Shown: in pieces, positions 1,640 through 36,030 of the stretch | Position numbering within the stretch: position 1 is the stretch's first letter | Layout of the letters: each line of letters opens with the position of its first letter | From: Methanomassiliicoccaceae archaeon | Lineage (GTDB): Archaea > Thermoplasmatota > Thermoplasmata > Methanomassiliicoccales > UBA472 | Assembly (NCBI GenBank): GCA_003135935.1 | Contig: PNBI01000026.1 | Span: 1-36,030, forward strand | Direction: 5' to 3' | Length of the DNA stretch: 36,030 nucleotides | Program-made: the position numbers and the translations under genes | The notes under the pieces: model-generated | The model's database searches: none | What the model saw: the letters and a program-made list of their open reading frames with translations, nothing else | Told to the model about the DNA's origin: nothing

Positions 1640-3955
1640 CTACTTCTTGACCTGCCTTTTTCGCAACACGACGAATGCGACGATAATTAATGCGAAAATA
1701 AGGACCACCACTAATATGATCGAGGTCTGCTGGTCTTGATGGAGGGGCAACTCTACTGTACTTACTCCATACCAAATGGGAGTGGTGAACCCTGTCCTAT
1801 TACCGAAGAAGTAGATTGTCAAATCGTTATTATGGTTTTCTATCCAATTCATACTGCATTTGGGCGCATTTCCTTCAAAGTGCAGTTGGGTCAAGTTGGT
1901 GCAGGAGTAGAACGCCGAATAGCCTATGGAAATGACATTGCTAGGGATTGTAACATTAACCAAGGAAGTGCAATAATTGAAAGCCCAGGCCCCTATGAAC
2001 TTAATGCTGCCAGGGATGGTGAAGTTGCCAGCCTTGCCTCCTGGACACACCATCAAAGTGGTCAATATCTTGTCGTATAATACGCCATCGATGCTTGCAT
2101 AGGATGCGCTGTCCGAGCTAACGTTTATTGAGGTAAGGGCACTGCAATGAAAGAACGCGCGACTTTCGATGGAAGCGATGCTATCAGGAATGTCAATCGA
2201 ACCAGCCTTGCCACCAGGACACAGTATCAAAGTGGCCAAAGTCTTGTTATACAATACGCCATCGATGCTTGCATAGGCAGAGTTGCTTGAACTCACGTTT
2301 ATCGAAGTCAGGGAAGTGCAGAATGAAAACGCGTCAGTCCCGATAGATGTGACGTTATTGGGTATTGCCACTGAGGTCATTGTGAAGCAGTCGTAGAACG
2401 CATAATCCCCTATGGAAGTGACCCCGTTCCCGATGGTCACCGAGGTCAGGGAGATGCATCGGACGAACGTGCGCTCACTGATAGAGGCAACTCCATTTCC
2501 GATGCTTGCTGTGACTAGGGCACTGCACCAGGAGAATGCCCCATTCCCGATCGAGGTGACGCTATCTGGTATGGTCACGGATGCCAGACCAGAGCTATAG
2601 AATGCGAGATCTCCGATGGCAAGGACGCCACTGGGAATGACGACCGAATCCAGGGAGGAACAGGAAGCGAACGCACTGTAGCCAATGGACGTCACTCCGC
2701 TTCCGATCGTCACGGAGGTCAGGGAGGAACACTGTTCGAAGGCACCTTCCCCGATGTGCGTAATGTTATCAGGTAAGGTGATCGAGCTCAAAGAGGTGCA
2801 ACGCGAAAACGCATACATACCTATGGTCGTGACGCCGCTTCCGATGTTCACTGAGATCAAAGAGGTGCAGAATTGGAAGGCACCAATGTCGATTTGTGTG
2901 ACGCTGTCCGGTATCGTCAATGAGGTCAGGGAGCTGCAATTGAAGAACGCGGAGTCCCCGATGGATGTGACCCCGTTGCTTATGGTAATGGATGCCAGGG
3001 AAGAGCACGAGAAGAACACCCCGCCCTTAATGGAAGTGACGCCATCTGGTACTGTAACCGAGGTCAGGGAGGTGCAGTGGCTGAAAGCGGCTCCCCCGAG
3101 GCTCGTAACGCTGTTCGGGATTGCCACCGAGGTCAGGTTAGCACAGTACAAGAACGCCCCGTCCCCGATGGAAGTGGGGGCGCCGGGGACGACGAACGAC
3201 CCCTCCCTTCCCCCAGGGACCCGGATCAATGTGGTCAAGTCCTTGCTGAACAGCAATCCATCAAGGCTGGCAAAGCTCGGGTTGCTGGCGCTCACAGTAA
3301 TCGAGGTCAGCGAAGGGCAGGCACTGAAAACCATGGAACCTATATGTGTGACGCCGCTGGGAACGTTGATCGATGTCAGAGAGTCATCGAAGTTTAGCGC
3401 CCCATCCTGGATATACGTCACACTATCAGGGATTGTCACCGAGGTCAGTGAAGCACACTGGCTGAGAACTGACGAACCGATGTATGTGACTCCGTCAGGG
3501 ATGACCACGGAGATCAGAGTGGCGCACAATTGGAACGCGCCCATCTCGATGGAGGTGACCGGTTTCCCGTCGATCACACTGGGGATCACGACGTTCCCCC
3601 CCGCGCCGTGATACACTATAATCACGATCTCCGTGCCTTCGTTGTTGTAGAAATAATCATAATCGCCACTTGTTAGATAGCCATTATCGGCTGCGATAAC
3701 AGTATTGGCGCTGGAGGCACAGAACATAGCGCTCAACAGTATGAACGATGCGAGGATCGTGCTTCCAAATCTCCAATATAATATATGGCGGCGAGAAACC
3801 GAAGCCGCATTTCGAGCTTCATCGCGATTCGGAAGGCGCGAAATCAATTCTCCCCACTCTCTTGAACATATCCTTGATAGATTGAATATAAAATTGCGTG
3901 CTAATATAGATGTCAATGCTCTCAGACCCAAACCACCATCGACAGGATTATTCAT
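1640..3955 (-). CDS. BspA-like leucine-rich-repeat (LRR_5) surface protein with C-terminal transmembrane anchor; start uncertain
   Basis: ORF of up to 850 aa (4192..1640) with many ~23-aa repeats of the type LTSVTIPDSVTSIGDGAFxxCSS; signal-peptide-like segment STILASFILLSAMFCASSANTVIAAD; C-terminal TM IILVVVLIFALIIVAFVVL followed by RKRQVKK. Upstream ORF extension overlaps another likely gene, so ATG at 3955 (or later) is preferred. Confidence 0.85.
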   Translation of the reverse strand: MNNPVDGGLGLRALTSILARNFIFNLSRICSREWGELISRLPNRDEARNAASVSRRHILYWRFGSTILASFILLSAMFCASSANTVIAADNGYLTSGDYDYFYNNEGTEIVIIVYHGAGGNVVIPSVIDGKPVTSIEMGAFQLCATLISVVIPDGVTYIGSSVLSQCASLTSVTIPDSVTYIQDGALNFDDSLTSINVPSGVTHIGSMVFSACPSLTSITVSASNPSFASLDGLLFSKDLTTLIRVPGGREGSFVVPGAPTSIGDGAFLYCANLTSVAIPNSVTSLGGAAFSHCTSLTSVTVPDGVTSIKGGVFFSCSSLASITISNGVTSIGDSAFFNCSSLTSLTIPDSVTQIDIGAFQFCTSLISVNIGSGVTTIGMYAFSRCTSLSSITLPDNITHIGEGAFEQCSSLTSVTIGSGVTSIGYSAFASCSSLDSVVIPSGVLAIGDLAFYSSGLASVTIPDSVTSIGNGAFSWCSALVTASIGNGVASISERTFVRCISLTSVTIGNGVTSIGDYAFYDCFTMTSVAIPNNVTSIGTDAFSFCTSLTSINVSSSNSAYASIDGVLYNKTLATLILCPGGKAGSIDIPDSIASIESRAFFHCSALTSINVSSDSASYASIDGVLYDKILTTLMVCPGGKAGNFTIPGSIKFIGAWAFNYCTSLVNVTIPSNVISIGYSAFYSCTNLTQLHFEGNAPKCSMNWIENHNNDLTIYFFGNRTGFTTPIWYGVSTVELPLHQDQQTSIILVVVLIFALIIVAFVVLRKRQVKK
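1900..3560. repeat. Tandem ~69-bp coding repeats (23-aa LRR_5 units)
   Basis: Recurrent 'acc/gtc gag gtc agg gag/ca gtg cag ... aat/gaa cgc ... atg gaa gtg acg cc' pattern on + strand, antisense of the LRR ORF. Confidence 0.85.
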
Positions 3956-3976
3956 GATACCGATGATTAGGAGCCG

Positions 3977-4150
3977 GTGGCCGAAGTGAAGGTGCATTGC
4001 CTCTGGCATGCCAAGGATGGAAGATGCGCCAGCTGTAAGGCCAGAAGGATACGCCTTGATGTCCTCGCCATCAAGGACTATGAGATGTGCCGGGGCGAAG
4101 AGGATTACGCGGTATGCGAGTTCTATAAAGAGAAACCAGTCGCACCATAG
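3977..4150 (+). CDS. Small Cys-rich protein (54-57 aa), GTG start at 3977 or 3986
   Basis: Not in the supplied ORF list. Reads (MAE)VKVHCLWHAKDGRCASCKARRIRLDVLAIKDYEMCRGEEDYAVCEFYKEKPVAP*; Cys spacing C-x8-C-x2-C-x17-C-x8-C; stop 14 nt before the next ATG. Confidence 0.65.
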   Translation: MAEVKVHCLWHAKDGRCASCKARRIRLDVLAIKDYEMCRGEEDYAVCEFYKEKPVAP

Positions 4151-4163
4151 AAGAAGTGAAAGG

Positions 4164-4772
4164 ATGCCGAAGCCCGTTGATGTCGATCCCAACTCATTGA
4201 TGAAGGTCGATCAATTGACAGAGGAAGAGGTCGAGAAACTCAAGTGCGAGCTGCATTCCAGCCATCGAGATCGACGGTCAGCCGCATTCGAACTGCTTCA
4301 CCAGCTACTCAAGGACCGGGCGATATTCGGGCTTTCGCCTTCTGAATTGTCCAGCGAACTTCAGAATGCCGACGTCGAAACGAGGAAACAGGCATCCTGG
4401 GCGATTGGAAAGATGGCACAGAACAAACTCCCTGGCGATTACTCTCTCGATCTAATGGAGCTTCTGACCTCAGATCCAGACCCTGAGGTGAAGGAGAACG
4501 CCGCTTGGGCCATAGGCGAGATTGCTGGCGTCCAAATAGGGAGGGAGAGGTCGATAGCATTCCTTAATCTCCTCCTGGCAGACGAGAGCTTCGAGGTTAA
4601 GGGAATGGCAGCATGGGGCATCGGGCGACTGGCGGATAAGCTGTTCCTGGGCAACACGAGTTCCTTGACCCCTTTGGTCAAGATGGCCGAGGACCAGAGC
4701 GAGTTCGTTCGCAAGAGCGCCAGATTCGCCTTGGAACGCCTTGCCAAGATAGGGATAATCCCCCGGCCCTGA
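4164..4772 (+). CDS. HEAT-repeat / PBS-lyase-like repeat protein
   Basis: MPKPVDVDPNSLMKVDQLTEEEV..., repeats with ...RKQASWAIGKMA..., ...VKENAAWAIGEIAG..., ...VKGMAAWGIGRLAD... Confidence 0.85.
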   Translation: MPKPVDVDPNSLMKVDQLTEEEVEKLKCELHSSHRDRRSAAFELLHQLLKDRAIFGLSPSELSSELQNADVETRKQASWAIGKMAQNKLPGDYSLDLMELLTSDPDPEVKENAAWAIGEIAGVQIGRERSIAFLNLLLADESFEVKGMAAWGIGRLADKLFLGNTSSLTPLVKMAEDQSEFVRKSARFALERLAKIGIIPRP

Positions 4773-25659: not shown

Positions 25660-25839
25660 GTCGATTAGTATTGGGGTGTTGGTATAAATAGATTGTTGGA
25701 ATTTGCAATCCCAGATGATGCAATAGTGAAACATTTTGGCAATTTTTTCAGATGCGAATGTTTCTCAACGTGAATCGAAGACTGCTGATGGTAGCAATGA
25801 GTTCTGCATTGCAGGAGGTCATTTCTCTCGCTAGATGCC

Positions 25840-26787
25840 TTAACTCATCGTTGCTTCCCTTTCGTGCTTTACGATCTTGCTAATACCCTCATCTATGGAG
25901 ATGCTGGGCTGCCATCCGGTGATGTTCTTCAACCGGCTAATGTCAGCGTAACTTTTCTCATATCGTCCTTCGACCGGAGTCTCCTTGACCTGGAGGTTGC
26001 CGAAATGATTGGACAACGATTGGACTACGCGATCGATCGAAGTCGGCTCCCCTTTACCTATATTGACGTACATTTCTTTCGAAGGGGAACTTGCCAATTT
26101 CATCAAGGCGGTTGCCACATCGTCAGCGAAAATGTAGTCGAACTCGTTCTCCTTTTGGAACAAGGTGATTGGTTTGTTCCTAAGTGCGCTTCGTGTCCAT
26201 CTGGATATTACATCTCGGGAGCCTTCGCCATATACCCGGAAAATCCTTGCACAAATCGCCTGGACATCGGGATGAGTCTCCGAATAGAATTGTACTTCCT
26301 TCTCTCCAAAAAACTTAGCAGACCCACACAGATTCCTTGGATCCTTTTGCGAATCCTCGCGTATCGGAGTTGCGAGTGCCTTGGCATCGTTATGCAGATA
26401 GAGATTGGGATCATAGACAAGGTACGATGAGGCGAAAACGAATCTTCCTTCAGACTCTTGCTTGGACATCGCTGAAAGGAGTCTATGAGTCACTCGAACA
26501 TTGTTTTGGTAATTCGAACCCCAGAAAGATGAGGTCTCTTCGCTTCTCTCGAAAGTTGCCGCCAAATGAAAGATGACATCAGGTTGCAGTGCCGAAATGA
26601 CATCTTCGATCGCAGTAACAACCAAATTGCTTTGAATATAAGTAACGGACTCAGGAAGATTGTTTGGCTTTGCTTTCTTGTCGATGACGGTCAGTATCGC
26701 GCCCAGCTTCCACAATCTTCGAATCAGGTATGTACCAATCACACCTGCGCCACCTGTTATTAGAATCCTTCTTCGGCCTAGATCCAT
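25840..26787 (-). CDS. NAD-dependent epimerase/dehydratase (extended SDR)
   Basis: MDLGRRRILITGGAGVIGTYLIRRLWKLGA, VIFHLAATFE, FASSYLVYDP; start ATG at 26787 overlaps the upstream gene stop (TAATG). Confidence 0.88.
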   Translation of the reverse strand: MDLGRRRILITGGAGVIGTYLIRRLWKLGAILTVIDKKAKPNNLPESVTYIQSNLVVTAIEDVISALQPDVIFHLAATFERSEETSSFWGSNYQNNVRVTHRLLSAMSKQESEGRFVFASSYLVYDPNLYLHNDAKALATPIREDSQKDPRNLCGSAKFFGEKEVQFYSETHPDVQAICARIFRVYGEGSRDVISRWTRSALRNKPITLFQKENEFDYIFADDVATALMKLASSPSKEMYVNIGKGEPTSIDRVVQSLSNHFGNLQVKETPVEGRYEKSYADISRLKNITGWQPSISIDEGISKIVKHEREATMS

Positions 26788-27410
26788 TAGAACCACTTAC
26801 CCCTAATCTCTCGCCATTCCTGCTCAAGCATCGAGTGTAGGATCGAATCCCAGAAACGGCCCTTCTTCCATTGATGATCCCTCATGGATCCTTCCTTCCT
26901 GAACCCAAAATCCTCAAGAATCGACATATGCTCCTTTCTGAACTCGAAGGTCTCGGTGAATATCTTGTGAAGGGCCATCTGATCAAACCCGTATGCGCAA
27001 AGCAAAGCGAGCGAGCACCTCATGTCATTCTCATAGAGGTCCTTGTCTTGGGCTCTTGAAGGGTCGACCAGAAATGACAGCTCAGCCCTCCTGTTTACTG
27101 TGTCTATTCTTACTAGGGCACAATAACCAATGAGTTCCTCTTTATCCCCTATTAAGCTCCTTATTGCGAAGACTGCCTGGCTCTCGTCCTTGCTGATTCG
27201 TTGGAACCATTCCTCCTGATTCTGATCCGTTAATGGTTTCCACTGCCTGAGGGTATCGATCTGAGAATTCCTCCATTCCTTTATCTTAGTAAGATCCTCA
27301 TGAATGAGTGCTCCCAAGCATCTTCCTTCCAACGCCATGACCTTTTCCTTTCTCCTCATCGCACCAGCAATCTGATTTTCATCATATCTATCTTTTCCAA
27401 CAAAAGTCAT
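26787..27410 (-). CDS. GNAT N-acetyltransferase, PseH/RimJ-like
   Basis: LTKIKEWRNSQIDTLRQWKPLTDQNQEEWFQRI..., ELSFLVDP, ALHKIFTETFEFRKEHMSILEDFGFRKEGSMRDHQWKKGRFWDSILHSML. Start may be internal (MALEGR, approx. 27338). Confidence 0.82.
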   Translation of the reverse strand: MTFVGKDRYDENQIAGAMRRKEKVMALEGRCLGALIHEDLTKIKEWRNSQIDTLRQWKPLTDQNQEEWFQRISKDESQAVFAIRSLIGDKEELIGYCALVRIDTVNRRAELSFLVDPSRAQDKDLYENDMRCSLALLCAYGFDQMALHKIFTETFEFRKEHMSILEDFGFRKEGSMRDHQWKKGRFWDSILHSMLEQEWREIRGKWF

Positions 27411-27454
27411 CTCCAGGTATAAATAGAGACAGTGGCAATTCCAAGAAGAGCTGA

Positions 27455-28465
27455 ATGAAGAGCGGTGACGATTTCAATGTCCTGATTACCAGTGCCTCAC
27501 GGAAGGTCTGGCTGATTAAGGCCTTTAAACAGGCGATTGCTGAGGAAGGCAAAGGGAAGGTGATAGCGGGAGATGCGAGTCCTAGATCGCCTACACTCTG
27601 CCTCGCCGATGAAGGCGTGATTCTTCCACCAGATGACAATCCAAACCAGGAGAGCTGGTTGCAAGAATATTGCATAAGAAAAGGAATTAAACTGCTGGTT
27701 CCGACCCGGGATGAAGAACTCCCGATCTTCGCGGGTCTTTCGAAGTCGTTTCTTGCCGAAGGAATTAGGATAATGGTGGCTGAAAGTGAAGTCATTGAGA
27801 CTTGCCGTGATAAGGGAAAATTCGTCGAATTCTGCCAAGCCCATGGGTTCAGAACTCCCATGACTTTTAGCGCCATCGATGAAATCCATAATCGTGATTT
27901 CCCTCTATTTCTCAAGGAACGGTTTGGCAAGGGAGGCAAGAACATTTTCCAGGCGAAAGACCGCGCAGACCTGGAATACATCCTTAAGAGGATGCAGGAC
28001 CCGATCGTCCAGAAATTCGTCGATGCCACAGAGTATACTGTCGACGTCCTTTCCAATTTCGAAGGTGAAGTCATCAGCGCTATCCCACGGGAGCGCTCCC
28101 TCATTATTGCTGGAGAATCACAGGTCTCTATAACTAGGATGAACTGGAAGATAATCCATGAAGCATCGAATCTATCCACAGAACTCGGGCTCGTAGGTCA
28201 TAACACCATCCAGTGCTTCGAAACCGAGGGTGATGTGGAGTTCATTGAGGTAAACCCTCGATTCGGAGGAGCGGCGAACCTCGGTTTTGCTGCTGGTTGC
28301 TGCAGTCCAAGGTTATTGATCGATATGGTTCGTGGCAAACCAGTGCTGCCACGGCTCGGTCAATTCAAGCCAAATTTGATGATGCTACGGTATTCGCAAG
28401 ATCTCTTCATACAAGAGGAGGAGCTGGTGCATTCATTTGACAAGAATCAAAGCCGTGTTGTTTGA
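27455..28465 (+). CDS. ATP-grasp domain protein (carbamoyl-phosphate-synthase-like ligase)
   Basis: NVLITSASRKVWLIKAFKQA...GDASPRSP...; FPLFLKERFGKGGKNIFQ; ATEYTVDVLSNFEGEVISAIPRER; EGDVEFIEVNPRFGGAANLGFAAG. Confidence 0.88.
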   Translation: MKSGDDFNVLITSASRKVWLIKAFKQAIAEEGKGKVIAGDASPRSPTLCLADEGVILPPDDNPNQESWLQEYCIRKGIKLLVPTRDEELPIFAGLSKSFLAEGIRIMVAESEVIETCRDKGKFVEFCQAHGFRTPMTFSAIDEIHNRDFPLFLKERFGKGGKNIFQAKDRADLEYILKRMQDPIVQKFVDATEYTVDVLSNFEGEVISAIPRERSLIIAGESQVSITRMNWKIIHEASNLSTELGLVGHNTIQCFETEGDVEFIEVNPRFGGAANLGFAAGCCSPRLLIDMVRGKPVLPRLGQFKPNLMMLRYSQDLFIQEEELVHSFDKNQSRVV

Positions 28466-29144
28466 CCTGGATGATACCTTGTATTTCGAGCCGAACTATG
28501 TGCATAGTGGCTTCAGGGCTATTGCTCAATACACCGCAAAACGTCATGGACTGGATGAACATAGAGTCTTGAACGATCTTATGGAGATCCTTCAGAAAGA
28601 AGGTAGGGGGAAGGTATTTGATTATTGGATTGAAAGAGAGGGTTTGCATGATTTGGTCACAGTCCCAGAACTGGTGAATGTTTATCGGGAGCATGTCCCG
28701 ACAATCAATTTCTATCCTGATGTGGCACCGACACTGAAACGATTGCGTGCTAAGGGACTATTATTGGGGGTCATAACAGATGGAAACCTGTTGGCACAGA
28801 CTAATAAGGTCCAAGCCCTCGGAGTAAGAGACATGGTAGACCTGGTCATTTGCACAGACGAGAGAGGACAAGCTTACTGGAAGCCCAACCCTCGAGTGTT
28901 CTTGGACGCATTGGGCAGCTTAAAAATAAGGCCGAAGGAATCAATCTATATCGGCAATGATCCAAGAAAGGACTTCTCCGGTCCAGAACAGATAGGTATG
29001 TGGGCGGTGCACATTGAGCGTTCCCATGTTGGAGAACATTCCTGCCAAGCGGATTTCCATATCATTGGGCTCGACCAGGTTGAGAAAGCCATCCGATTCT
29101 TTGATTCGAAATTAGAACAATTTGATGCCGGTCGGAACCAATGA
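28437..29144 (+). CDS. HAD-superfamily hydrolase
   Basis: IKAVLFDLDDTLYFEP, LLLGVITDGN, KPNPRVFLDALGSL, IYIGNDPRKDFSGPEQIGM. TTG start at 28437 overlaps ATP-grasp gene by 29 nt. Confidence 0.9.
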   Translation: MTRIKAVLFDLDDTLYFEPNYVHSGFRAIAQYTAKRHGLDEHRVLNDLMEILQKEGRGKVFDYWIEREGLHDLVTVPELVNVYREHVPTINFYPDVAPTLKRLRAKGLLLGVITDGNLLAQTNKVQALGVRDMVDLVICTDERGQAYWKPNPRVFLDALGSLKIRPKESIYIGNDPRKDFSGPEQIGMWAVHIERSHVGEHSCQADFHIIGLDQVEKAIRFFDSKLEQFDAGRNQ

Positions 29145-29260
29145 TGTATCGATGACTTCGGAAACTTTGACAGAGAATGTGTAGGCCAGAGATGATTAAT
29201 TGATGGTTGCATCGAACTTGGCCGTATACTCAGCATCTTTTCATATGACCATTTCACTAT

Positions 29261-30370
29261 ATGGCTAGCGATCTGCTTCAAAATGAATATTCCAAGGAGT
29301 ATGCGGTGTTGATCGGGGAATTCAGGATCGGGGACAGAGCCCTAGGGGGGGACCACCCTGTTTACGTGGTTGCGGAATTGTCGGCCAACCATCTCCAGGA
29401 TTTTCATATTGCGGAAGAGATCGTTAAAAGAGCCAAGCTAGCAGGCGCCAATGCTATCAAGACCCAAACCTACTCACCAGATAGCCTCACAATCAATTTT
29501 GCCACTGGTGGAGAAAAAGCCTGCCAAGGCACCATCTGGCAAGGCACACCACTCTATGAACTTTATTCTAGGGCATGCACCCCAATGGAATGGCAGGAGA
29601 AAATTAGGGATCTAGCGGTTGGATTGGGCATGGATTTCTTCTCCACCGCCTTCTCTGAAAAGGATGTCGAATTCTTGGAGAAACTCGATGTGCCTGTCCA
29701 TAAGATCGCCTCCTTTGAGATAGTCGACATACCTTTGATCGAATACATGGCCTCGACCGGAAAGCCGTTAATCATATCAACCGGGATGGCAACGATTGAT
29801 GAAATCCATGAGGCCGTCGATACTGCAGTTTCCTTTGGCGCCCCCCAAGTGCTCTTGCTGAAATGCACAAGCGCCTATCCTGCCAAGCCAGAAGAGATGC
29901 ATCTTGCCACAATCCCTGACATGCGGAAACGCTTTGGTGTCCCTGTTGGATTATCTGACCATTCAATGGACTTGGAAGTGCCCATGACAGCAGTGGCGAT
30001 GGGTGCTTGCTTAGTTGAGAAGCATCTTACCCTCGATCGCGGCCTTGGTGGACCAGATTCGAAGTTCTCACTCGAGCCGGATGAATTTGACCGGATGGTC
30101 AAATCGATCAGATTGGTGGAGAGATGCAAGGGAAATATTACATATGGACCAACGGAGGAAGAGAAGAACAGCCTTCCTTGTCGTAGGTCGTTGTACGCCG
30201 TCAAAGATATTATGGCCGGAGAGAAGCTAAGCCTGGATAATGTCAGATCGATTCGACCGGCATATGGCCTTCATCCAAGAGAGATGCGATCAGTCCTTGG
30301 GAGAAAAGCTGCGAGGAATATCAAGGCGGGCGAACCTCTTGAATGGTCAATGCTGTCTGACGAATCGTGA
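29261..30370 (+). CDS. pseI: Nonulosonic acid synthase, pseudaminic acid synthase-like
   Basis: YVVAELSANHLQDFHIAEEIVKRAKLAGANAIKTQTYSPDSLTI, GTIWQGTPLYELYSRACTPMEWQ, KIASFEIVDIPLI, SDHSMDLEVPMTAVAMGACLVEKHLTLDRGLGGPDSKFSLEPDEF; C-terminal SAF domain. Confidence 0.9.
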   Translation: MASDLLQNEYSKEYAVLIGEFRIGDRALGGDHPVYVVAELSANHLQDFHIAEEIVKRAKLAGANAIKTQTYSPDSLTINFATGGEKACQGTIWQGTPLYELYSRACTPMEWQEKIRDLAVGLGMDFFSTAFSEKDVEFLEKLDVPVHKIASFEIVDIPLIEYMASTGKPLIISTGMATIDEIHEAVDTAVSFGAPQVLLLKCTSAYPAKPEEMHLATIPDMRKRFGVPVGLSDHSMDLEVPMTAVAMGACLVEKHLTLDRGLGGPDSKFSLEPDEFDRMVKSIRLVERCKGNITYGPTEEEKNSLPCRRSLYAVKDIMAGEKLSLDNVRSIRPAYGLHPREMRSVLGRKAARNIKAGEPLEWSMLSDES

Positions 30371-31116
30371 CCAGCGTCCGATGTGATAGAATGAACACCA
30401 TCTGCATCATACAGGCGAGGATGGGCAGCACCCGACTGCCAGGAAAAGTCATGATGGATATCATCGGAAAGACGATGCTACAGAGGACCTATGAACGGGT
30501 GAGCAAAGCCAGAAGCATTGATTCGACCATCGTGGCCACGAGCACCCTCGCAGCGGATGATCAACTGGAGCGCTATTGCAATGAGAATGCTTGGCCCTGC
30601 TTCCGGGGTAGCGCTGAGGACGTATTGGAACGCTACTATTCGGCCGCGATTGCCTTCAAGGCGGATGTTATTGTGCGGATTACATCCGATTGTCCTCTCA
30701 TCGATCCTTCTGTTACTGACAAGGTAATCCAACATTTCCAGAAGATTGATTGCGATTATGCCAGCAACGGCTTCCCCCTGAGGACCTTCCCCCGAGGATT
30801 GGACACCGAGGTCTTCAGCTTCCGTGCGCTCGAACGCTCTTGGCATGAGGATACTGATCTATCGACGAGGGAGCATGTCACCCAATATATTCAAAGAAAC
30901 CCACGAAAATTTCGGTTGACGGGAATAATGAATCCAATCGATTATTCTCATCTTAGATGGACGGTGGACGAACCGAGGGACCTAGAGTTCGTGAGGCGCG
31001 TGTACTCGATGATGGCAAGGGACTATTTCAGCTGGGAGGATGTGGTATCCTTGTTGAAGAAGTCTCCTGAGCTGATAGATATCAACAAGGATGTTACGCA
31101 AAAGGCATTGCCTTGA
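30367..31116 (+). CDS. SpsF/PseF-like cytidylyltransferase
   Basis: ICIIQARMGSTRLPGKVMMDIIGKTMLQRTYERV, FRGSAEDVLERYYSAA, VRITSDCPLIDPSV, DYASNGFPLRTFPRGLDTEVF; start codon region overlaps PseI stop. Confidence 0.87.
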   Translation: MTSVRCDRMNTICIIQARMGSTRLPGKVMMDIIGKTMLQRTYERVSKARSIDSTIVATSTLAADDQLERYCNENAWPCFRGSAEDVLERYYSAAIAFKADVIVRITSDCPLIDPSVTDKVIQHFQKIDCDYASNGFPLRTFPRGLDTEVFSFRALERSWHEDTDLSTREHVTQYIQRNPRKFRLTGIMNPIDYSHLRWTVDEPRDLEFVRRVYSMMARDYFSWEDVVSLLKKSPELIDINKDVTQKALP

Positions 31117-31125
31117 TTAAAAGAA

Positions 31126-32271
31126 TCAAAAGATGTCCCTTAGACATTTCCTAACGTCTTCGATTACCTGGTTGACCTGGCCATCCGTCATCGTGCCGAA
31201 TATCGGTATGCTAAGTATCTTGCCATAGGCTTCCTCTGCTTTTGGACAGAGACCTGCCCCGGTGCCGAACGTTGTTACATAATATGGATGAAGATGAACT
31301 GGAATATAATGCACATTTACGCCGATGCCAAGCTTCCTGAGCCCGACGAACATCTTATTCCGGTTTATGGACCCGCCTTCGATCTCGATGACGAATAGAT
31401 GATAAGCATGCTTGCATCCCGATGTCACCCCCAGCATGCGAATGCCTTTTATGTCCTTGAATTCCTGTAAGTATACGGCCGCAATTTCTCGCCGTCTCTC
31501 CAGCCATCTTGGCAACTTTCTCAACTGGCTAATCCCTAGAGCGCATTGGATGTCCGTCAATCTGTAGTTATAACCCAGCTCGGTCATCTCATAGAACCAG
31601 GTCTGGTCTGCCTCCCGTTGTCGAGCCGTTCTATCAATCCCATGATTGCGGAATCTCCGCATACTTTCCTCAAATTCGTCATTCTCGGTAAGCACCATCC
31701 CCCCTTCTCCAGTGGTGATGTGTTTCACCGGATGGAAACTAAGCGCGGTTAGGTCGGCCAAAGCTCCGATCTTCTTCCCCTTATACTCCGCCCCCAGAGC
31801 GTGGCAGGCGTCAGAAATCAAAATCAGATCCTTTTCATATGCTATCTCATTCAGTTCGTCGTAAGGGCAGGGGTTGCCAGCATAATCCACGCTCACAATC
31901 GCTTTTGTGGCTTTCGTAATCTTCGATCTTACTTGATTTGGATCGATCAAAAGTGTATCGGGATCGACGTCAACGAAGACCGGCCTGCCACCTTGGTATA
32001 CGATGCAATTGGCACTCGCCGCGAACGTCATAGGGGTAACAAGGACTTCATCGCCTGGCCCTATTCCAGCTGCTGCGATGGCGGTATGCAAGGCTGCAGT
32101 TCCATTTGACACTGCCACACCGTATTTGGCCGATGTGAATGAGCATATTGCCCGTTCGAACTCCTCGATCCTCGGGCCGGTGGTAAGCCAATCTGATCTC
32201 AGGACCTCGACGACTGCATTGATGTCCTCTTCATCTATTGACTGCTTACCATAAGGGATCACTCCGCGCAT
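31126..32271 (-). CDS. pseC: UDP-4-amino-4,6-dideoxy-N-acetyl-beta-L-altrosamine transaminase-like DegT family protein
   Basis: IPYGKQSIDEEDINAVVEVLRSDWLTTGPRIEEFE, VTPMTFAASANCIVYQGG, DACHALGAEYKGKKIG, SFHPVKHITTGEGGMVLTEND. Confidence 0.92.
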   Translation of the reverse strand: MRGVIPYGKQSIDEEDINAVVEVLRSDWLTTGPRIEEFERAICSFTSAKYGVAVSNGTAALHTAIAAAGIGPGDEVLVTPMTFAASANCIVYQGGRPVFVDVDPDTLLIDPNQVRSKITKATKAIVSVDYAGNPCPYDELNEIAYEKDLILISDACHALGAEYKGKKIGALADLTALSFHPVKHITTGEGGMVLTENDEFEESMRRFRNHGIDRTARQREADQTWFYEMTELGYNYRLTDIQCALGISQLRKLPRWLERRREIAAVYLQEFKDIKGIRMLGVTSGCKHAYHLFVIEIEGGSINRNKMFVGLRKLGIGVNVHYIPVHLHPYYVTTFGTGAGLCPKAEEAYGKILSIPIFGTMTDGQVNQVIEDVRKCLRDIF

Positions 32272-33245
32272 CCAGATTCCTTCACTAGGGTTTTCAATTG
32301 TTCAACCGACAGCCACTCAGCATTCGAATCGCTCGAATAACGGAATCCTTCTGGTATCGGCTTCTTGCTTTCCCATTTGATGTAGCCCCAGGACGGTTCC
32401 GAAGGCTCAATGATAAACATATCATCATGATCGACGGTACTTCGCATCTCATCTTCGGATATCAAGACCTCATGAATCTTCTCACCCGGACGGACCCCTG
32501 TATATTCAACGGAACACCCTGGGGCTATCGCCTTGCCTAAGTCGGTCAATGACATGCTTGGTATCTTTGGGACGAAAATCTCCCCACCGTGCATGCGTTC
32601 AACGTTCTTAATCACGAAATCCACACCTTGATTAATGGTGATCCAGAAACGGGTCATTCTTTTATCCGTTATCGTAATTTTGCCAGCCTTTCTCTGCTGC
32701 AGGAATAGTGGAACCACGCTGCCCCGGCTTCCGATTACGTTGCCATATCTGACGCAGCTGAACCGTGTCCCCTTCGCCCCACTGTAAGAATTAGCCTGGA
32801 TGAAGAGCTTCTCCGCCACAAGCTTCGTGGCACCATATAGATTCACAGGATTGACCGCTTTGTCCGTACTGAGGGCAATGATTTTTGAGACCCCGCAGTC
32901 AAGGGCAGCCTCAATGACGTTCTTCGCACCATTGACGTTGGTATTTATCGCTTCGATAGGATTGTACTCGCAGGCGGGTACTTGCTTCATCGCTGCCGCA
33001 TGTACAACGATATCGACATCTCCCATCGCCCGCGTCAGCCTCCCTTGGTCCCTGACGTCTCCTATGAAATACCGAATGCTAGGGTGGTTGAACCCCGATA
33101 TTCTCATCTCATGCTGCTTCAGTTCGTCTCTGCTGAAGATGATGAGTTTCTTGGGCTTGTACTCGTTCAACATGACCTTTGTGAACTTCTTGCCAAAAGA
33201 ACCAGTACCGCCAGTGATGAGCACTACCTTATCATCCCAACGCAT
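32259..33245 (-). CDS. pseB: UDP-N-acetylglucosamine 4,6-dehydratase (inverting)-like
   Basis: VVLITGGTGSFGKKFTKVMLNEYKPKKLIIFSRDELKQHEMR, VVHAAAMKQVPACEYNPIEAINTNVNGAKNVIEAA, SVVPLFLQQ. Confidence 0.94.
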   Translation of the reverse strand: MRWDDKVVLITGGTGSFGKKFTKVMLNEYKPKKLIIFSRDELKQHEMRISGFNHPSIRYFIGDVRDQGRLTRAMGDVDIVVHAAAMKQVPACEYNPIEAINTNVNGAKNVIEAALDCGVSKIIALSTDKAVNPVNLYGATKLVAEKLFIQANSYSGAKGTRFSCVRYGNVIGSRGSVVPLFLQQRKAGKITITDKRMTRFWITINQGVDFVIKNVERMHGGEIFVPKIPSMSLTDLGKAIAPGCSVEYTGVRPGEKIHEVLISEDEMRSTVDHDDMFIIEPSEPSWGYIKWESKKPIPEGFRYSSDSNAEWLSVEQLKTLVKESGCAE

Positions 33246-34538: not shown

Positions 34539-35489
34539 TCAATCCAACGAAACGGTGCAACCCTTGGCCAGTGATTCCTTGGCCTTTTCGATGAGCTCTA
34601 CCGTCCTGACCCCTATGGTACCGGAATTCCTGGTCTCGCTCTGCGGGTCGGAGATCGATTGCACGAAATGCAACAGCTCTGTCCGAATGGTGTTGTTCCT
34701 CTCGACACCCAACTTATAGGTGTAGCCGGACTCATAGATCGTGATCTCTTGGCCGACCGCATCGATGTATGCCGATCTGCCCTCTCCGATGACACTAATC
34801 TGGCGGACCTTTCTTGGAGATAGCCAGCTCAGGGTCGCATGTGAGATGACGCCCGACTTCAGCTCAGAGATGATGTAGGCGGTCTCCTCAAGTTCCTTTC
34901 GCCGGAACGGCTTGGCCACGCAGGTCACCCGATTCGGCCACTCATCCAGCAGGAAGTTTATGATATCGAAATAGTGAGGAGCTAGGTCCACGATCACGTC
35001 ACGGTCGGCGAAGGGCTGTTCGAGGTTGGTCCATTCAAGCTCGATCAGGAAGACCTTTCCAAAGAACTTCTCCTTGATCAACCGCCTTATCTCCAGCAAC
35101 GCATTGTTGAAACGATAGATATGGCCGACGGAAAGAGTCAATCCTTTCTGCTCCGCCAATGCCACCAGTGTCTTGCCTTCCTCGCTCGATAGAGTCAATG
35201 GCTTCTCAACCAGGACGTGCTTTCCCGCCTCAAGCGCCTCTTTACAGGCTGGATAATGCAGAATGTTCGGCAAGCAGATATTCACAGCTTTTATGCTCGG
35301 GATTGCCAGGACCTCGTGATAATCTTGGACGAGCGTCTCCACTCCATATCGGTCCCTGGCAAGCTCCAGGTTCTTTTTCGATAGATCCGACACCGCCTTG
35401 ACCTTCACATTGGGGATGTTGCTCCATTCTTCCACGATCTTGCGGCCCCAATAGCCTACTCCGAGGACGCCGACCTCAAAGGATTTCAT
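34539..35489 (-). CDS. Gfo/Idh/MocA-family oxidoreductase
   Basis: MKSFEVGVLGVGYWGRKIVEEWSNIPNVKVKAVSD, HVLVEKPLTLSSEEGKTLVALAEQKGLTLSVGHIYRFNNAL. Confidence 0.92.
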   Translation of the reverse strand: MKSFEVGVLGVGYWGRKIVEEWSNIPNVKVKAVSDLSKKNLELARDRYGVETLVQDYHEVLAIPSIKAVNICLPNILHYPACKEALEAGKHVLVEKPLTLSSEEGKTLVALAEQKGLTLSVGHIYRFNNALLEIRRLIKEKFFGKVFLIELEWTNLEQPFADRDVIVDLAPHYFDIINFLLDEWPNRVTCVAKPFRRKELEETAYIISELKSGVISHATLSWLSPRKVRQISVIGEGRSAYIDAVGQEITIYESGYTYKLGVERNNTIRTELLHFVQSISDPQSETRNSGTIGVRTVELIEKAKESLAKGCTVSLD

Positions 35490-36030
35490 TTCAGCCCTCC
35501 AAAGAAGCCCTTGACTTGCTCGCTGACGTACTTGACCTCTTCATCCTTCATCTCTGGGAACATCGGAAGCGAAAGCACTTGGGCGCCGAGCCTTTCTGCC
35601 ACCGGGTAACTGCCCTCCTTGTAGCCATACATTTGGATATAGACCGGTTGCAGGTGGATCGGGACCGGGTAGTGGATCGCTGTCTCGACCCCTTTTTGAG
35701 AAAGATATGCGGCCAGTTCATCACGGCGCTTCGTCCTTATGACATATAAGTGGAAAACCGGTGTCGAATCCTTGTTCGCTAGAGGTGGCAAGCCCATCTC
35801 CTTTAGCTCCTTCAGTTCCTGGAAATACAACGAAGCTATCGCCCTCCGACGCTCGTTCCACGATTCAAGATGCCTCAATTGGACTCTGCCGATGGCGGCA
35901 TTGCAAGTGTTCAGGCGCGCCGTGAACCCGACCATGTCGTGGATGTAGCGGGAAGCTCTTCCGCAATCCCTCATCTTCGCCACTTCTTTTGCAAGCTCGT
36001 CATTATCGGTGGTCACCATGCCGCCGTCGC
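35486..36030 (-). CDS. DegT/DnrJ/EryC1/StrS aminotransferase, C-terminal part, truncated by window edge
   Basis: ...GGMVTTDNDELAKEVAKMRDCGRASRYIHDMVGFTARLNTCNAAIGRVQLRHLESWNERRRAIASLY...GVETAIHYPVPIHLQPVY; 4-nt overlap with downstream oxidoreductase. Confidence 0.9.
   Translation of the reverse strand, partial: DGGMVTTDNDELAKEVAKMRDCGRASRYIHDMVGFTARLNTCNAAIGRVQLRHLESWNERRRAIASLYFQELKELKEMGLPPLANKDSTPVFHLYVIRTKRRDELAAYLSQKGVETAIHYPVPIHLQPVYIQMYGYKEGSYPVAERLGAQVLSLPMFPEMKDEEVKYVSEQVKGFFGGLK

Follow-up and report, generated by a model that had tools for sequence, protein, structure and literature searches.

The window, as the whole 36,030-nucleotide stretch of DNA analysed here is called, comes from a Methanomassiliicoccaceae archaeon and contains a pair of overlapping genes within a nonulosonic acid (NulO) biosynthesis cluster. 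The first (27455-28465, + strand, ATG start) encodes a putative ATP-grasp carboxylate-amine ligase of 336 residues, which is PRK12767-like with a PylC-like N-terminal domain (Pfam matches ATP-grasp_3, E 6e-17, and PylC-like_N, E 8e-17). The second (28437-29144, + strand, TTG start) encodes a putative HAD hydrolase of 235 residues, which is TIGR02253-like and belongs to subfamily IA (Hydrolase, E 1e-19; HAD_2, E 8e-19). The 29-nt overlap between them is credible, since a GGAGGAG sequence lies about a dozen nucleotides 5' of the TTG and the HAD proteins of relatives begin at a nearly identical position. Open reading frames and domain matches thus agree with the preliminary description of this DNA, in which an overlapping ATP-grasp and HAD pair was followed by pseI and a cytidylyltransferase gene on the same strand.

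The pseI gene (29261-30370, + strand) encodes a pseudaminic acid synthase that scores 426 bits against TIGR03586 (cut-off 340); with an AAGGAG upstream, its true start is probably the GTG at 29306 or the TTG at 29309. The next gene (30367-31116, + strand), with a probable true start at the ATG at 30391, encodes an SpsF-like CMP-sugar cytidylyltransferase (CTP_transf_3, PF02348, E 9e-35) that reaches 20 bits against the PseF model, for which the cut-off is 206. Further downstream and on the - strand are the genes for the aminotransferase PseC (31126-32271; TIGR03588, 474 bits against a cut-off of 424) and the dehydratase/epimerase PseB (32259-33245; TIGR03589, 506 bits against 408). Upstream of the ligase gene and divergent from it are two more genes on the - strand, one for a PseH-like GNAT N-acetyltransferase (26787-27410; 42 bits with the PseH model, below the cut-off of 93) and one for an SDR of the epimerase/dehydratase family (25840-26796). 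This SDR accompanies the ligase in close relatives, with homologues that adjoin the ligase or lie one gene off at five loci of the survey described below (L016, L019, L020, L021 and L022); at four of these, L016, L020, L021 and L022, the homologue stands between PseG and the ligase. L019 also has a homologue of the window's GNAT (205 bits), which lies beside an SDR-methyltransferase-ligase-HAD series.

Elsewhere in the window is a gene for a BspA-type leucine-rich-repeat protein of the surface-protein type (1640-4192, - strand; LRR_5, 425 bits). Genes for a Nop-domain protein and for one of the IF-2B family indicate that the genome is archaeal. At the far end, a gene for a Gfo/Idh/MocA dehydrogenase, to which the archaeal UDP-GlcNAc 3-dehydrogenase model comes nearest but below its cut-off, overlaps one for a DegT aminotransferase that continues past the window's edge (34539-36028, - strand). 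This region, 98% identical in a congener, suggests a separate amino-sugar route.

The predicted model of the ligase (pLDDT 91.6) matches the folds of ATP-grasp carboxylate-amine ligases and carboxylases, the best match being the uncharacterised protein of PDB 2pn1. Among 21 relatives, E265 and N267, which would be expected to hold ATP and Mg, are invariant, and K120 and K154 are nearly so. By model and alignment, then, the protein has the fold and the conserved ATP/Mg residues of ATP-grasp carboxylate-amine ligases. The HAD model (pLDDT 95.3) matches small-molecule phosphatases. Its motifs I (DxD; D10 and D12), II (T/S; T114) and III (K; K149) are all in place, and D10, D12, K149 and D179 are invariant in 19 relatives, with T114 nearly so. 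Motif IV reads N174-D175...D179 in the window, N174 replacing the usual metal-binding aspartate, which is found at position 174 in 17 of the 19 relatives. At codons 174-175, the window and L022 read N-D, most relatives D-N.

A ligase alignment, scanned against contigs of GTDB genomes, yielded 80 loci from bacteria and archaea, and a further six came from plasmids. These loci are the best matches to the alignment, with the window protein as reference, and are not a random sample. Adjacency was counted in the 83 loci with at least 400 nt 3' of the ligase, and the numbers vary with the length of the contigs and with the simple method used to call open reading frames. A HAD homologue lies directly 3' of the ligase in 64 of the 83, and 48 of these adjacent pairs overlap, an upper bound because the most upstream start was taken in each case. 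The preliminary description had read the overlap as a sign of functional coupling, and the survey bears this out: with a HAD gene directly downstream of so many related ligases, the arrangement is not due to chance. Three close relatives, L016, L018 and L021, have a ligase with no HAD next door. Two of them, from Nitrospirota genomes of the magnetotactic type, hold PseG, SDR and ligase together (L016, 2267-3286; L021, 9998-10948). A scan of viral contigs with the single ligase gave no match, and a phage collection gave one weak match to it.

Pairs lying mostly outside NulO clusters would, by the preliminary description, speak against its proposal, and this is where most of them are. A pseI gene is present in the locus for 15 of the 64 pairs and absent for the other 49, although some of the latter loci are short or break off close to it. 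A Bac_transf sugar transferase is encoded in 42 loci without pseI or pseG, and in 35 of them the end of its gene lies no more than 150 nt from the start of the ligase. Many of these loci also have genes for a PglF/PglE-like dehydratase and aminotransferase. By gene content, this second context is a bacillosamine-type pathway. In relatives such as L052 and L010, Bac_transf is fused or adjacent to the ligase, L052 having a Bac_transf-ATP-grasp fusion followed by HAD, whereas the window locus has neither such a domain nor such a neighbour. A search of 369 genomes, all from one bacterial class, for a fusion resembling PglB2 of Neisseria found none.

Acetyltransferases appear to be sparse around the pair. 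In family tallies, which cover only clusters with the pair, each acetyltransferase family other than the MBOAT O-acyltransferases has fewer than three matches among 108 other genes near bacillosamine-type pairs. A regular expression for hexapeptide acetyltransferases, used without a positive control, found almost none near the pairs and is given no weight here. PseH exceeds its cut-off in none of 24 genomes and gives no match whatsoever in four of them, which is weak evidence, as the model is narrow. Of 19 NulO loci, 9 have methyltransferases close to the ligase. Neighbours of the ligase of about 300 residues were considered as formyltransferases, but this assignment was rejected, as they are methyltransferases.

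On a quick ligase tree, made without bootstrap, the window falls in a clade of 17 rows with 97% SH-aLRT, of which 16 are NulO-associated, and the context changes 13 times, against 37 in shuffles. The two contexts thus separate on the tree, which makes the NulO association old and specific. In the window's own order, the ligase is found in 2 of 61 genomes, the window's included, and from this rarity it was probably acquired by transfer.

The two contexts have one intermediate in common. UDP-4-amino-6-deoxy-HexNAc is the product of pseB and pseC in NulO clusters and of the PglF/PglE-like genes in the loci with Bac_transf, and in known pathways it is N-acetylated next. In Neisseria, according to two reports, PglB2 has an ATP-grasp domain where PglB has its acetyltransferase domain, and the resulting sugar is glyceramido rather than acetamido (PMC11130364, PMC6959607). 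The common intermediate and this precedent make amide formation at that step most likely here as well. One suggestion of the preliminary description, that an amino acid or acyl group is ligated, gains support from the conserved pair, its context and the ligase fold, the substrate itself being inferred.

Our reading, which we consider probable though well short of certain, is that the pair forms a transferable module that N-acylates an amino sugar, with the ligase making the amide on the amino group and the HAD removing a phosphate. PseB and PseC, or PglF and PglE in the other context, would make a UDP-4-amino-4,6-dideoxy sugar. The ligase would then spend ATP on an amide bond between a carboxylic acid and an amino group, most likely the one at position 4 of this sugar, and the HAD would strip a phosphate, either from the attached phosphorylated acid after ligation or from the free acid beforehand. 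Through PseI and the cytidylyltransferase, the acylated sugar would become a NulO with an N-acyl group other than acetyl. The identity of the acid is the least certain step. Glycerate derived from 3-phosphoglycerate would fit best, given the di-O-methylglyceroyl pseudaminic acid known from Campylobacter jejuni (PMC3068675) and the methyltransferases in the NulO loci; 3-phosphoglycerate would leave an N-glyceroyl group once the HAD had acted, a proposal that we consider less likely than not. More tentative is the full picture of an unrecognised, horizontally mobile module of archaea and bacteria, in which the 4-amino group of a UDP-sugar would receive from the ligase a small phosphorylated acid, 3-phosphoglycerate for example, and a dedicated HAD would dephosphorylate the product, the two replacing the acetyltransferase in both NulO and bacillosamine-type pathways. 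Since the window has a GNAT of its own, its 4-amino group may still be acetylated, or acetyl and another acyl group may both be attached. Other points against the N-acylation reading are N174 in the window's HAD and the close relatives whose ligase has no HAD beside it.

The GNAT kept beside the ligase would also suit a later decoration, in which the substrate of the ligase is the free NulO or CMP-NulO, downstream of PseI; N-5 or N-7, for instance, would lose its acetyl group and receive an amino acid or glycerate in its place. The di-O-methylglyceroyl group of C. jejuni is at N-5, where it is thought to replace the acetyl group (PMC3068675), and amino-acyl NulOs exist, such as Leg5GluNMe7Ac of C. 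botulinum (PMC13317340); the NulO-specific ligase clade of the window points in the same direction. Most pairs, however, are found in clusters without a NulO synthase, so that a common substrate downstream of PseI is impossible there, and we regard late decoration as unlikely, though worth keeping in view. Epimerisation of NulOs at C-8 was considered and rejected as a role for the pair, as the enzymes known to do this, reductases/SDRs and a cytidylyltransferase-reductase, are neither ATP-grasp nor HAD proteins.

Whether the window's pathway works at all is a question raised by comparison with a congener (G002, locus L134) that has the same locus, with flanks that are 80-91% identical in DNA. 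At the protein level, the two are 94% identical in PseB and 82% in PseC but only 62% in PseI and 59% in the cytidylyltransferase. Between the flanks, the congener has a PseG-GNAT fusion (225.7 bits with PseG) and then pseI and the cytidylyltransferase gene, whereas the window has the SDR, GNAT, ligase and HAD with its diverged pseI and cytidylyltransferase. By blastn against L134, the alignable flanks stop at 25696 and resume at 31152, which leaves 25697-31151 of the window opposite 10772-14324 of L134. Similar flanks with different or diverged genes between them indicate that a 5.5-kb cassette has been exchanged between two species of one genus. PseG with a C-terminal GNAT domain occurs in archaea at L134 (10945-12438) and L017 (8515-9975), and these proteins are probably PseG-PseH fusions.

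No PseG above the cut-off was found in the window's genome, which is 92% complete. The PseG of the congener has no match within the window, and the 116-nt gap between HAD and pseI, translated in three frames, holds no evident PseG remnant. PseG does appear to have gone from this genome together with the fusion of the congener type. The missing PseG and the abrupt boundaries could mean that the cassette is a recent recombinant with no working pathway or one that needs genes missing from the assembly; relatives in the order seldom carry PseI (6 of 101 genomes), just as they seldom carry the ligase. Against this, every reading frame of the cassette is intact and the ligase keeps its catalytic residues, and either case seems improbable.

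The same exchange, with the pair where the congener has its PseG-GNAT fusion and no PseG found in the genome, could instead mean that the HAD, with or without the ligase, frees the sugar from UDP by way of a phosphorylated intermediate. The preliminary description had raised such a detour in place of PseG and had proposed a survey of gene neighbourhoods for the pair with PseB, PseC and PseI but lacking PseG. In that survey, genomes with PseG dominate. Of 23 ligase-bearing genomes in the NulO context, 20 encode a PseG-like protein, which scores above the curated cut-off in 13 and has E <= 1e-18 in the other 7, and whose gene is often part of the ligase's own operon. In the Methanobacteriaceae locus L020, for example, the operon holds PseB, PseC, the cytidylyltransferase, PseG, SDR, ligase, HAD and PseI. 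Of the remaining three, L019 breaks off at the end of its contig 60 residues into a PseG that immediately follows the HAD, and two are without PseG. The pair is therefore no general replacement of PseG. It is also common in the loci with Bac_transf, where the sugar has to remain attached to its phosphate carrier, and an ATP-grasp ligase has no part in the PseG reaction; we rate the replacement as very improbable. In the window's genome itself, a purely local substitution may still apply, or pseG may be part of the 8% that is not assembled; the most straightforward reading places pseG elsewhere in the genome or has another hydrolase serve. A NeuC-type candidate in this genome was set aside, as it scores 67 bits against a cut-off of 236 and is probably an ordinary epimerase.

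The folds nearest to that of the HAD are those of mouse and human N-acylneuraminate-9-phosphatase, along with archaeal HADs, but with an identity of only 18-20% to the animal enzymes, a HAD just as common where there is no NulO synthase, and a 6-deoxy sugar as the product of PseB, so that C-9 of the product has no oxygen to phosphorylate and a NulO-9-phosphate detour is chemically closed, a role like that of animal NANP is barely credible.

The ligase-HAD pair is thus widespread in surface-glycan clusters. Searches of one literature library returned no published function for the pair and no account of it as a module, of its division between NulO and bacillosamine-type contexts or of the archaeal cassette exchange. 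What is already known is an ATP-grasp ligase beside spsE and spsF in Clostridium acetobutylicum (PMC4000134) and PglB2 in Neisseria. If one reaction does serve both contexts, it would explain the origin of glyceramide and similar N-acyl groups and would allow better prediction of nonulosonic acid structures from genomes, with the warning that PseB/C/I clusters need not make diacetyl pseudaminic acid. The congener's locus offers a natural comparison, with and without the pair, inside one genus.

Several known systems resemble parts of the window's cluster. The carbamoyl-phosphate-synthase-like proteins represented by PRK12767 and PDB 2pn1 have the same fold as the ligase and match it over its full length, although the ligase remains below the equivalog cut-off (NF009405, 276 against 390 bits). 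The canonical CMP-pseudaminic acid pathway (PseB, C, H, G, I and F) has its PseB, PseC and PseI in the window, all above their curated cut-offs; in contrast, PseG was not found there, the PseH-like and PseF-like proteins fall below theirs, and SDR, ligase and HAD are additional. In the flagellin-glycan island of C. acetobutylicum, the ATP-grasp protein CA_C2189, for which a function has only been proposed, is likewise encoded beside a NulO synthase gene (spsE) and spsF, but the published table of genes lists HAD only as part of a fusion with an N-acetyltransferase, ten genes off (PMC4000134). Neisseria PglB2, a phosphoglycosyltransferase-ATP-grasp protein associated with a glyceramido-acetamido trideoxyhexose, similarly ties an ATP-grasp ligase to the UDP-4-amino-6-deoxy-HexNAc pathway in the place of the acetyltransferase, and a HAD hydrolase is marked among the N. 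oralis pgl genes in a legend (PMC6959607). The order of domains in the Bac_transf-ATP-grasp fusion of L052 is that reported for PglB2 (PMC11130364, PMC6959607). Unlike PglB2, to which it is likened by architecture and context, the window's ligase is a separate protein adjoining pseI, with no fusion to a sugar transferase. By this analogy, the window's cluster is most likely an unusual-acyl branch of NulO biosynthesis, for which PglB2 would be a close functional model.
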